Source: Candidatus Fusobacterium pullicola (GTDB lineage: Bacteria; Fusobacteriota; Fusobacteriia; Fusobacteriales; Fusobacteriaceae). Taken from it: a DNA stretch of 64,000 nt. Shown here one piece after another: positions 47,030 to 50,841 of this stretch. Each line of letters starts with the position of its first letter. Position 1 is the stretch's first letter. The translations under genes and the position numbers were made by a program. The stretch spans positions 1 through 64,000 of the forward strand of contig JAHLFN010000076.1 in the NCBI GenBank assembly GCA_018883725.1. Reading direction: 5' to 3'. Under the pieces are notes generated by a model. It was not told the origin of the DNA. It ran no database searches and saw nothing but the letters and a program-made list of their open reading frames with translations.

Positions 47030-47755
47030 TTAGTTAAAATATTTTTCTATTAATTTATCATAAGTTCCATTTGCTTTTATTTCAGTTAAAGCTTTTTCAA
47101 TTTTTTCTAATAGAGCTTTATCGTTTTTTCTTATAGCTATAGCGTACTCTTCTTTTGCTGCATCAGCCTCAGCTAATTTTAATCCTGGATTTTGTTTTAC
47201 ATAATTTTTAGCTGGTTCAGAGTCTAAAACAACAGCATCAGCCTTATCAGCTTTTAAAGCCATTATACCAGCATAAGCAGCGTTAAATCTTTCTATTTTA
47301 ACTCCTTCTATCTCACTTACAACAGTATCACCAGTAAATCCTAACATAACTCCAACTCTTTTTCCTTTTAAGTCCTCAAAAGATTTTATACTGTTATCTC
47401 CTTCTTTTACTATTATAACTTGACTAGCTGTATAATAAGGTTGTGTAAATGCAACTGTTTTCATTCTCTCTTCAGTAGCTGTCATTCCTGCTATTACAAC
47501 ATCAACTTTCTTTAATTGTAAAGCTGGTAATAACCCATCAAAAGCCATATCCTGGATTTTTATATCAGCATTTAATACTTTTCCAATCTCGTTCATTAAT
47601 TCAATATCAAATCCTGTTATTTTTCCATTTTCTAAATATTCAAATGGAGGAAATTCAGCATTTGTTCCAACATATATTTTTTCTTTAGCTAAAGCTGTAG
47701 CCGATAAAGATAGCACCATTATTCCAATTAAAGCTTTTTTTAATAGTTTTTTCAT
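47030..47755 (-). CDS. Polar amino acid ABC transporter, periplasmic binding protein
   Basis: Family 3 solute receptor of 241 residues with a cleavable signal peptide (LIGIMVLSLSATALA, cut near residue 23) and no lipobox. The mature protein opens KIYVGTNAEFPPFEYLENG, then KITGFDIELMNEIG and DVVIAGMTATEERMK, as in receptors for arginine, lysine, histidine, glutamine or cystine. Specificity is not certain; the arginine-rich leader at 49408-49494 favours basic amino acids. Third gene of the operon, 35 bases after the ATPase gene, with AGGAGAA before the ATG. Confidence 0.9.
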   Translation of the reverse strand: MKKLLKKALIGIMVLSLSATALAKEKIYVGTNAEFPPFEYLENGKITGFDIELMNEIGKVLNADIKIQDMAFDGLLPALQLKKVDVVIAGMTATEERMKTVAFTQPYYTASQVIIVKEGDNSIKSFEDLKGKRVGVMLGFTGDTVVSEIEGVKIERFNAAYAGIMALKADKADAVVLDSEPAKNYVKQNPGLKLAEADAAKEEYAIAIRKNDKALLEKIEKALTEIKANGTYDKLIEKYFN

Positions 47756-47790: not shown

Positions 47791-48519
47791 TTATTTATTT
47801 AATACTTTATTTAAGAATTCTTGTGTTCTTTCATGTTTAGGATTAAAGAATAATTCATTTGGAGTAGTATCCTCTAATATGTTTCCTCTATCCATGAAGA
47901 AAATTCTATTTGCAACATTTTTAGCAAATCCCATCTCATGAGTTACTATAAGCATTGTCATTCCCTCTTCAGCTAACTCTCTCATTACATCTAGAACCTC
48001 TTTTATCATTTCAGGGTCTAGAGCTGATGTAGGTTCATCAAATAACATTATTTCAGGCTCCATTGCTAAAGCTCTAGCAATAGCTATTCTTTGTTTTTGT
48101 CCTCCAGATAATTGGTTTGGATAACTACTTGCTTTATCTTTAAGTCCAACTTTTTCAAGTAAAACAAGAGCTTTCTTCTCGGCAACTTCTTGAGATATAT
48201 TTTTTAATTTCATAGGTGCTAATGTTAAATTTTCCATAACAGTTTTATGTGGAAATAGATTAAAGTGTTGAAACACCATCCCTACTTTTTGACGAATTAA
48301 ATTTATATCAGTTTTTTCATCCATTATATCTTGATCTTTTATATATATATGTCCACTTGTTGGTTCTTCCAATTTATTGATACATCTTAAAAATGTAGAT
48401 TTTCCACTTCCAGATGGTCCAATAATAGCAATAATATCACCTTTATTAACCTTAGCATCTATTCCTTTTAATACTTCTAAATTTCCATAACTTTTACATA
48501 ATTTTTCAATCTTAATCAC
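47791..48519 (-). CDS. Polar amino acid ABC transporter ATPase
   Basis: ATPase of 242 residues of the GlnQ/ArtP/HisP group. Walker [10 protein letters not shown] near residue 33, the Q-loop [14 protein letters not shown] near residue 82, signature [15 protein letters not shown] near residue 136, Walker [16 protein letters not shown] and switch His IVTHEM are all intact. It overlaps the permease gene by eight bases. Confidence 0.93.
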
Positions 48520-49222
48520 TTACTTTCAACCCCTTTTCTATTCCTCTCATAAATTTAGTAAACATAGCTGTCATAATTAAATAGATAAGACCTACAGCTA
48601 ATAGTGGTTCTACACCTCTATATGTTTGACTTGTAATAATATTAGCCGAACGTAATAAGTCAACTCCACCTATAAATCCAACTATAGATGTTTCTTTTAA
48701 TAAAGTTATAAATTCACTTACAAGTGCTGGTAAAATTTTCTTAACAGCTTGAGGTATAATTATCTCTTTCATAGCTTGACCATAATTCATTCCTAAAGCT
48801 CTTGCAGCTTCCATTTGTCCTTTATCTAATCCTTCTATTCCAGCTCTTATTATTTCAGCAACATAAGCACCAGAGTTAATACCAAATGAGATAGCAGCTA
48901 TTACTAAAATAGGTGTATCTCTTAAGCTTCCTACAAATATTAAGTTTGCTAAAATCATAAGTTGTACCACTGCTGGTGTTCCTCTTATTAAATCAACATA
49001 AGCAAAGGCCAATTTTGAAAGTGGGTTAAATTTTTTCCATTTTTCACTATGTTTAAATGGATAAAAATGTGAAAGTTGTAATAGAGCTATAAATATTCCT
49101 AGAGCAACTCCTATTATAGCTGCCAAAGCTGTTGTTCCTACAGAAAAGGCAAGTCCATTTAATATATATTTATATCTCTCACCTCCTATAAAAATATCTT
49201 TCAGTAGTGCTAAATACTCCAT
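48512..49222 (-). CDS. Polar amino acid ABC transporter permease
   Basis: Inner membrane permease of 236 residues with about five hydrophobic segments of the HisM/GlnP family. It has [16 protein letters not shown] near residue 95 and the EAA coupling loop [22 protein letters not shown] near residues 158-179. It is the first gene of the operon and lies behind a leader with a peptide frame and a terminator. AAGGAGG precedes the ATG. Confidence 0.93.
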
Positions 49223-49267: not shown

Positions 49268-49302
49268 TAAAAAAAAATACAGACACTAAAAATGTCTGTA
49301 TT
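49268..49302 (-). terminator. Attenuator terminator in the amino acid transporter leader
   Basis: Minus strand AATACAGACA, loop TTTTTAG, TGTCTGTATT, then a long T-run. It lies between the leader peptide and the permease gene. A rival hairpin CCAATAT/ATATTGG (49320-49350) lies just upstream. Confidence 0.88.
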
Positions 49303-49407
49303 ACATACCCTTAAATAATCCAATATCACTAATATATTACTTAATATTGGTTACTCTTTTATGCTCATGAAAAAAATAAAATTACCTTCTTCAATCTTTT
49401 CAAAAAG

Positions 49408-49494
49408 TTAGTATAATGCAGTCATTTTAATAGACAAGGCTATATTATTATAAATTTTATCTCTATAATTCCTCATCCTAAAATTCCTTAACAT
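49408..49494 (-). CDS. Arginine-rich leader peptide (28 residues)
   Basis: A 28-codon frame with a strong AAAGGAGGAAGTAAA site. It opens MLRNFRMRNYRDK: four arginines, encoded by AGG, AGG, AGG and AGA, within the first 11 residues. The rest has no repeated residue theme and ends in MTALY. It follows a consensus promoter and precedes a paired hairpin set with a terminator before an amino acid transporter operon. This is the architecture of translation-coupled attenuation or nascent-peptide sensing. Arginine as the signal is inferred from the codon content. Confidence 0.72.
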   Translation of the reverse strand: MLRNFRMRNYRDKIYNNIALSIKMTALY

Positions 49495-49524
49495 TTTACT
49501 TCCTCCTTTTTTTAATTTTATTCG

Positions 49525-49553
49525 ATTATACCCCATATCGTTAAAAAAGTCAA
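49525..49553 (-). promoter_or_regulatory. Promoter of the leader and amino acid ABC operon
   Basis: Minus strand TTGACT (49548-49553), 17-base spacer, TATAAT (49525-49530), 31 bases before the leader peptide start. Confidence 0.85.
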
Positions 49554-49576: not shown

Positions 49577-50767
49577 TTATTTTTTATTATATTCCTCTAG
49601 AGCTCTTCTTAAAACTATCATAGCATTTTCAATATCATCAACATTTGTACAGAATGAAAATCTTACTTCCTGCTCTCCCATGCCCTCTGTTTGATAAAAT
49701 CCTGGCCCAGGAGCTATAAGTAGAGTCTTTCCATCATAAGAGTAATCCGTTAATAACCATTTAGCAAATTTTTCAGCATTATCTACAGGAAGTTTTGCAA
49801 AAATATAAAAAGCTCCTTGAGGCTTAGAACAGATTACACCAGGTATTTTACTTAAATATCCATACATTAGATCTCTTCTACTTTTATACTTTAATCTTAC
49901 ATCCTCAAAATAGCTATCCATTGTATTTATAAGGTTTGCTGCAGCATGTTGCTCAATTGTAGAAACACATAGTCTAGCTTGACAAAACTTTAAAATATAA
50001 TTCATTAATTCATGATTTTTACTAGCTATAAGCCCTATTCTAGCACCACAAGCACTATAGTGTTTTGATATGCTATCTACTAATATTACTCTATCTTTTA
50101 AATCTTCCATCTTCATAACTGATGTATATGGGCTATCATCATATACAAATTGTCTATATACTTCATCAGCTATTATATATAGATCATATTTTTTAGCTAT
50201 TTCTCCAATCATTCTAATCTCTTCTTCTGTATAAACAGTTCCAGTTGGATTTACTGGATTAGAAAACATAATAGCTCTTGTTTTAGGTGTAATTAATTTC
50301 TCTATCTCTTCTTGAGAAGGGAGATGGAAATTATTCTCTATAGTAGTAGGAATAGGCTTAACCTTTGCTCCTGAAAAAGCTGAGAAACTTGAATAATTTG
50401 AATAGAAAGGCTCTGGAACTAGTATCTCTTCACCTTCATTGCAAATAGCCATAATTGTAAATAAAATAGCTTCACTACCACCTTGTGTAATTAAGATATC
50501 ATCTACATCTATATCAATTCCACTAGCTTTATAACTTTTTACAAAACTTTCTCTTAATTTTAAAATTCCTTTTGAATCTGAGTATGTAACAATTTTTTCT
50601 TTATAGTTATTTAAACCTTCAAAAAAAGAATCTGGTGTTACTATATTAGGTTGTCCTATATTTAATTTATATACTTTAATTCCTCTTTTTTCTGCTTCAT
50701 CTGCAAGAGGTATCAACTTTCTTATTGGTGAAAAATTCATCTCTATTGCTCTATTGGATATCTTCAT
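49577..50767 (-). CDS. PLP-dependent aminotransferase (class I/II)
   Basis: Aminotransferase of 396 residues. It opens FSPIRKLIPLADEAEKRG and has KLNIGQPNIVTPD near residue 38. The catalytic region has NPVNPTGTVYTEEE near residue 171, DEVYRQFVYDD near residue 201 and the PLP Lys in DSISKHYSACGARIG near residue 233, and ends with RFSFCTN. This resembles aspartate or aromatic aminotransferases; the substrate cannot be fixed. I start at ATG 50767 with GGGAGAG upstream; the earlier in-frame ATG at 50785 would place that site inside the gene. Confidence 0.88.
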   Translation of the reverse strand: MKISNRAIEMNFSPIRKLIPLADEAEKRGIKVYKLNIGQPNIVTPDSFFEGLNNYKEKIVTYSDSKGILKLRESFVKSYKASGIDIDVDDILITQGGSEAILFTIMAICNEGEEILVPEPFYSNYSSFSAFSGAKVKPIPTTIENNFHLPSQEEIEKLITPKTRAIMFSNPVNPTGTVYTEEEIRMIGEIAKKYDLYIIADEVYRQFVYDDSPYTSVMKMEDLKDRVILVDSISKHYSACGARIGLIASKNHELMNYILKFCQARLCVSTIEQHAAANLINTMDSYFEDVRLKYKSRRDLMYGYLSKIPGVICSKPQGAFYIFAKLPVDNAEKFAKWLLTDYSYDGKTLLIAPGPGFYQTEGMGEQEVRFSFCTNVDDIENAMIVLRRALEEYNKK

Positions 50768-50841
50768 AACTCTCCCTCTTTTCAATTTTAATTTTCATTC
50801 ATTAATTTTATCATAACTTTAAAAAAAATTCAAAATATTTA

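Follow-up and report, generated by a model that had tools for sequence, protein, structure and literature searches.

Arginine-codon leaders with the features of a transcription attenuator ahead of arginine import and biosynthesis genes in Fusobacteriota

Described attenuators and the leader of the window

In 2010, leader-peptide attenuators were known only from Proteobacteria, Actinobacteria and some Firmicutes (PMC2965389). Those of the trp/his/leu type, from Proteobacteria and Actinobacteria, combine a short ORF bearing a cluster of end-product codons with alternative helices 1:2, 2:3 and 3:4 and an intrinsic terminator before the operon. For arginine, the nearest precedents are the orf34/SpeFL leader of Salmonella speF, a short Arg-codon ORF whose translation speed depends on arginine supply and which acts via Rho, translation and RNase G on polyamine synthesis (PMC6386406), and the rbfL leader of Staphylococcus aureus, whose rare AGG/AGA codons sense arginine by pausing and which blocks translation initiation of a biofilm regulator at low arginine (PMC13009471). 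Neither is a case of intrinsic-terminator transcription attenuation of arginine biosynthesis or import.

The leader described here lies upstream of an amino-acid ABC importer operon (Table 1) in the window, by which we mean the whole 64,000-nucleotide stretch of DNA that was analysed. Its plan is that of the trp/his/leu-type attenuators, but the amino acid is arginine, the phylum is Fusobacteriota, the start codon of the leader is included in helix 1:2, and many copies carry tandem terminators and a kink-turn-like module. Unlike orf34/SpeFL, these leaders have intrinsic terminators before arginine import or biosynthesis genes and a peptide sequence that is not conserved; in contrast to rbfL, low arginine would here raise the transcription of arginine genes. 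Arginine attenuation in Fusobacteria did not come up in a literature search; its coverage was incomplete, and consequently priority cannot be firmly claimed. The arginine attenuator family is real and, to the extent that this could be checked, undescribed.

Table 1. Features of the leader and of the operon behind it (positions in the window)
Feature	Position	Strand	Basis or remark
Promoter TTGACT-17-TATAAT, sigma70-type	49525..49553	-	11/12 matches, top promoter match of the region; hexamers kept in genus alignment
Shine-Dalgarno AGGAGG of leader ORF	49502..49507	-	GGAGG part at 49506-49502
Leader ORF MLRNFRMRNYRDKIYNNIALSIKMTALY	ATG 49494, stop 49408	-	28 codons; Arg at AGG3, AGG6, AGG8, AGA11
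Segment 1: start codon and Arg codons, 5' arm of anti-antiterminator helix 1:2	49461..49494	-	duplex -15.9 kcal/mol; covariation between genera
Segment 2 (CCTTGTCTATTAAAATGACTGCATT): 3' arm of helix 1:2	49415..49454	-	folding, duplex, covariation
Antiterminator part of segment 2 (AAATGACTGCATTATACTAACTTTTT)	49402..49427	-	pairs with terminator 5' arm; predicted -9.9 kcal/mol
Module GAAAAGATT-hairpin-ATGAGCATA, fits kink-turn consensus	49360..49401	-	invariant flanks, covarying stem
CCAATAT...ATATTGG hairpin, probably a degenerate first terminator (T1)	49320..49350	-	relatives have hairpin and U-run there
Segment 3: terminator 5' arm and bases immediately ahead	49291..49312	-	2:3 pairing test
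Intrinsic terminator, 12-bp stem and U-run	49268..49302	-	terminator match at 49302-49276; predicted -12.0 kcal/mol
Amino-acid ABC permease, first gene of operon	48512..49222	-	ATG at 49222; family search
Amino-acid ABC ATPase	47791..48519	-	family search
Substrate-binding protein, arginine-type by similarity	47030..47755	-	matches 6svf, 4prs, E 1e-61 to 1e-63

The preliminary description of this DNA had listed a promoter, an AGGAGG site, a 28-codon Arg-rich frame, a CCAATAT hairpin and a T-run terminator ahead of the permease gene, and every one of these elements was correct. The leader ORF, whose translation is predicted, has its own Shine-Dalgarno site and stands between the promoter and the first structural gene; it is enriched in Arg codons, and the intrinsic terminator follows before that gene. 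In the long ORFs of the window, Arg makes up 3.2% of codons and AGG 0.16%, AGG accounting for just 26 of 518 Arg codons (5%), so that the cluster in the leader is not due to chance: by hand calculation, the binomial probability of four Arg within codons 2-11 is about 2e-4, and that of three AGG about 5e-7. The 266-nt leader folds 5.5 standard deviations better than dinucleotide shuffles of it.

Directly upstream of the leader promoter is a gene for a PLP-dependent aminotransferase of the PRK07568 family (window 49577-50785). An aminotransferase of this family also lies upstream in genomes G001, G002 and G005 (and in G004, as judged from the visible end), while G006-G010 have a different gene at this position.

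Distribution of the leaders and the genes behind them

Below, g1-g14 denote genera, G followed by digits genomes, and L followed by digits leader loci. In a DNA search, the leader of the window aligned in 10 of 12 congeneric genomes before the same operon, with the Arg positions kept, and the remaining two genomes also carry the leader (L064 and L136). Homologues of it, with Arg codons and terminators, were traced to at least 13 genera belonging to two families. In each of the 53 leaders examined, 2-6 Arg codons lie close to the start and an intrinsic terminator stands ahead of the gene. AGG dominates them, as compared with 5% of Arg codons in the window genes, and it does so also in the leaders found via argC; those retrieved with the AGGATRAGG pattern are biased towards this codon. 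The conservation of AGG is in part due to pairing with CCUURUC rather than to coding.

Searches were made with two probes, the module GAAAAGATT...ATGAGYATA (probe 1) and GGAGG-ATG-AGGATRAGG (probe 2). Probe 1 led to leaders in g8, namely MLTMKRIRRSKEKHS before the same importer, and MLFRIRRMRR... and MMFRISRTRR... before argC (TIGR01850, 443 bits against a cut-off of 234). Probe 2 led to argC leaders in Leptotrichiaceae (e.g., MKMIRRIRDN...), to importers in g2, g3 and g14, and to M20 amidohydrolases in g4, while a variant of the module, GCAAAGATT, gave two further importer leaders in g13. The same importer is found behind an Arg-codon leader in g1, g2, g3, g8, g13 and g14; argC is so placed in g1, g5, g8, g13, g14 and Leptotrichiaceae, and in g12 Arg leaders precede argC-like/argB operons.

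As a test independent of the leader, the upstream regions of every argC in the family were inspected, which brought up Arg leaders in G002, G030, G033, G052, G054, G056 and G058, together with those of the argC-like/argB operons in g12. An Arg leader precedes argC in 10 of the 13 Fusobacteriaceae genomes with an above-cut-off argC, a count that includes three g8 genomes found through the leader, the rest having been found via argC. Upstream inspection revealed no Arg leader before argC in G043, G038 and G039, where argC follows argG and an argH-like gene closely precedes argG. Some argC operons of g13 and g14 have two Arg leaders in tandem. At L099, L100, L101 and L107, such tandem leaders, each with its terminator, lie upstream of a single argC operon; the pair at L101 reads MLIRRSRMRR... 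and then MRRYRRIRSK...

In the window genome, the substrate-binding protein of the importer has as its top solved-structure matches the amino-acid-binding protein entries 6svf and 4prs of T. maritima, which we take to be the arginine-binding protein of that organism. Its best NCBIfam model is the lysine/arginine/ornithine binding subfamily, with a score below the cut-off of that model. Since no argC above cut-off was found in the window genome, the organism could plausibly obtain its arginine by import. The preliminary description had taken the operon for an importer of arginine or a related basic amino acid under an Arg-codon attenuator; comparison lends support to this assignment, through the leaders that precede argC operons and the arginine-type match of the binding protein. 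Fusobacteriaceae also seem, from profile searches, to be without the usual arginine repressor: none of 61 genomes gave an ArgR match above cut-off with either the N- or the C-terminal Pfam model, while controls did give matches.

Genes of other kinds were found behind such leaders. An M20 amidohydrolase with the same Arg leader occurs in Fusobacterium and in a second genus (L038, L039, L042, L043, L053 and L127-L129), and its substrate may be an arginine-containing compound. An NhaC-like antiporter with a weak resemblance to ArcD (L012-L014) is preceded by a short leader, MLLRHERHGISNL or MLLRRESQGISNL, and tandem terminators. The weak DNA matches L015-L030 were discarded as coding sequence or as sequence resembling a promoter; the exception was L029, through which the M20 leaders were found.

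Alternative helices and the proposed switch

Helices 1:2, 2:3 and 3:4 are mutually exclusive, and the equilibrium fold favours 3:4. In permutation tests that ignore relatedness within genera, helix 1:2 had a mean of -17.5 kcal/mol for cognate arms and -13.3 kcal/mol for permuted ones (27 representatives), with 0 of 50,000 permutations reaching the cognate value; its start-codon part, taken alone, also beat all permutations. Pairing of segment 2 with the terminator 5' arm is located at +54 to +93 in most leaders, and in the same type of test the cognate total for helix 2:3 was matched or beaten by 6 of 20,000 permutations (26 leaders). For these predicted helices, covariation between genera is very strong for 1:2 and weaker, or moderate, for 2:3.

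The effect of a ribosome was modeled by masking, on transcripts that stop short of the 3' arm of the terminator. Sequestration of the 5' arm was 0.44 without a ribosome, 0.60 with a ribosome at the Arg codons and 0.51 with one at the stop codon. The gain from the Arg-codon mask exceeded that obtained with swapped arms (p = 2e-6 relative to no ribosome, and 0.016 relative to a ribosome at the stop). For the leader of the window alone, the stop mask did not bring arm sequestration below the Arg-codon mask (0.48 vs 0.44), and in its 2:3 pairing, 6 of 25 swapped arms outdid the cognate one. In equilibrium folds of the full-length RNA, the terminator prevails (about 0.9) with or without a masked ribosome. 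Therefore, the switch would have to act co-transcriptionally.

We consider it very probable that the leader works like a classical attenuator, controlling transcription through the ribosome and sensing charged tRNA-Arg; on the best reading, charging is sensed mostly at the rare AGG codon. The dependence on arginine and on Arg-tRNA charging, the order of events and the direction of regulation are what we infer, as follows. RNA polymerase would transcribe the leader and a ribosome would start on the leader ORF. When Arg-tRNA is short, the ribosome would stall on the AGG/AGA codons at positions 3-11 and, because it would then cover segment 1, segment 2 would be free to pair with segment 3; the terminator could not form in time, and the importer genes would be transcribed. 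When arginine is plentiful, the ribosome would reach the stop codon in or near segment 2 and cover that segment, allowing the terminator to form. If the leader is not translated, segment 1, with the start and AGG codons, would pair with segment 2 and the terminator would form as well.

The kink-turn-like module, the leader peptide and their alternative readings

Between segment 2 and the terminator, 26 leaders of g1, g8, g13 and g14 carry a module, G[AC]AAAGAUU-hairpin-AUGAGYAUA, that is the part of the leader without an explanation from known systems. Its flanks are invariant and its stem covaries: 98% of cells are paired, the covariation score is 0.54 as against 0.28 when shuffled, double changes number 26 as against 7.4 in shuffles, and sliding controls were lower. 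Written as two strands, the module has a three-base AAA bulge, tandem G.A/A.G, a U.U pair and two stems, and by sequence it fits the kink-turn consensus. It shares with kink-turns of the box C/D, SAM-I and glycine T-box kind the three-base bulge, the tandem sheared G.A/A.G, the U.U at 3b.3n and the two flanking stems, but its -1 pair is C-G only in g13 and g14, being A.G in g1 and g8. Two other readings were dropped: a second mini-ORF, MSIK, at the module (ATGAGYATAAA), whose AUG has no Shine-Dalgarno site and whose bases fit the module, and a sarcin-ricin motif, as many copies have AGCA.

A pattern scan of genome contigs did not reveal the module outside Fusobacteriota; it gave one true match (F. 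mortiferum, L093), the others falling mostly within long reading frames. At locus L176 (G054:C40:1500-2700, about 770-850), a copy of the module with a terminator stands ahead of an APC-type permease, with no visible Arg leader ORF. An L7Ae-type RNA-binding domain was matched inside an open frame of ~186 aa at G000:C67:34588-34824, and the encoded protein is a candidate binder of the module.

In most leaders, a first hairpin with a U-run follows directly after the module, and the main terminator comes next. The first hairpin of the window leader, CCAATAT, has no U-run. The preliminary description had listed this hairpin ahead of the terminator. It is not a central element of the switch; relatives have a hairpin and a U-run at that place, and in the light of this comparison it is probably the worn-down first terminator of a tandem pair.

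The Arg-codon leader and the module might form a dual-input device, that is, two sensors on one RNA (one for tRNA-Arg charging, the other for a small molecule or a protein of the L7Ae type) that drive the tandem terminators and replace ArgR phylum-wide. We regard this elaboration as unlikely. Less probable still is that the module is itself the sensor, as in a riboswitch or a protein-binding leader, and the ORF is secondary. The invariant flanks and covarying stem in four genera, the copy at L176 and the L7Ae-type protein encoded in 11 of the 12 genomes of the genus would suit such a sensor. However, the argC leaders of Leptotrichiaceae and several others keep the Arg ORF and helix 1:2 without the module, and Rfam 15 gave no match above the gathering score at either threshold, returning two weak chance matches to snoRNAs.

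The peptide itself offers another reading. At the N-terminus, the leaders of the genus keep M-[LVK]-R-x-x-R-[IM]-R, as such or shifted, and many leaders share the N-terminal R-[IM]-R motif, as might be expected of a nascent peptide of the SpeFL/TnaC kind that halts its ribosome by binding a metabolite, be it arginine, ornithine or another, in the ribosome tunnel; the orf34/SpeFL leader of Salmonella is an arginine-responsive precedent (PMC6386406). However, an arrest peptide should be conserved up to its arrest site, and only the Arg cluster is common to the leaders. Beyond it the sequence differs between genera, length ranges from 13 to 50 codons and the stop moves, while some leaders do without R-x-R altogether (L103, LRNFRIM; L102, KRTSYTR). 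We therefore give very little credence to an arrest peptide. The conserved nascent chain suspected in the preliminary description was thus not borne out, and the alignment across Fusobacterium that it had called for upheld the Arg positions and not the C-terminal half. The nucleotides downstream of the Arg cluster are constrained by RNA pairing, not by the peptide. Least probable of all is a leader that senses slowed ribosomes in general, for example through macrolide-type stalling at +x+ motifs: R-I-R and R-M-R do recall Arg-Leu-Arg, the motif of ribosome stalling in antibiotic-resistance leaders (PMC8632094), but the downstream genes concern arginine biosynthesis and amino-acid transport, not resistance, and several leaders have no R-x-R.

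An attenuator responding to the charging of tRNA-Arg suggests how a medically relevant phylum may control its arginine supply without ArgR, and it would add arginine genes, and the Fusobacteriota, to the range of leader-peptide attenuation. The shared leader lets the substrate of the importer and the roles of poorly annotated genes, such as the M20 amidohydrolase and the NhaC-like antiporter, be predicted. A conserved kink-turn-like module within a peptide-leader attenuator is unexpected, and it is testable.
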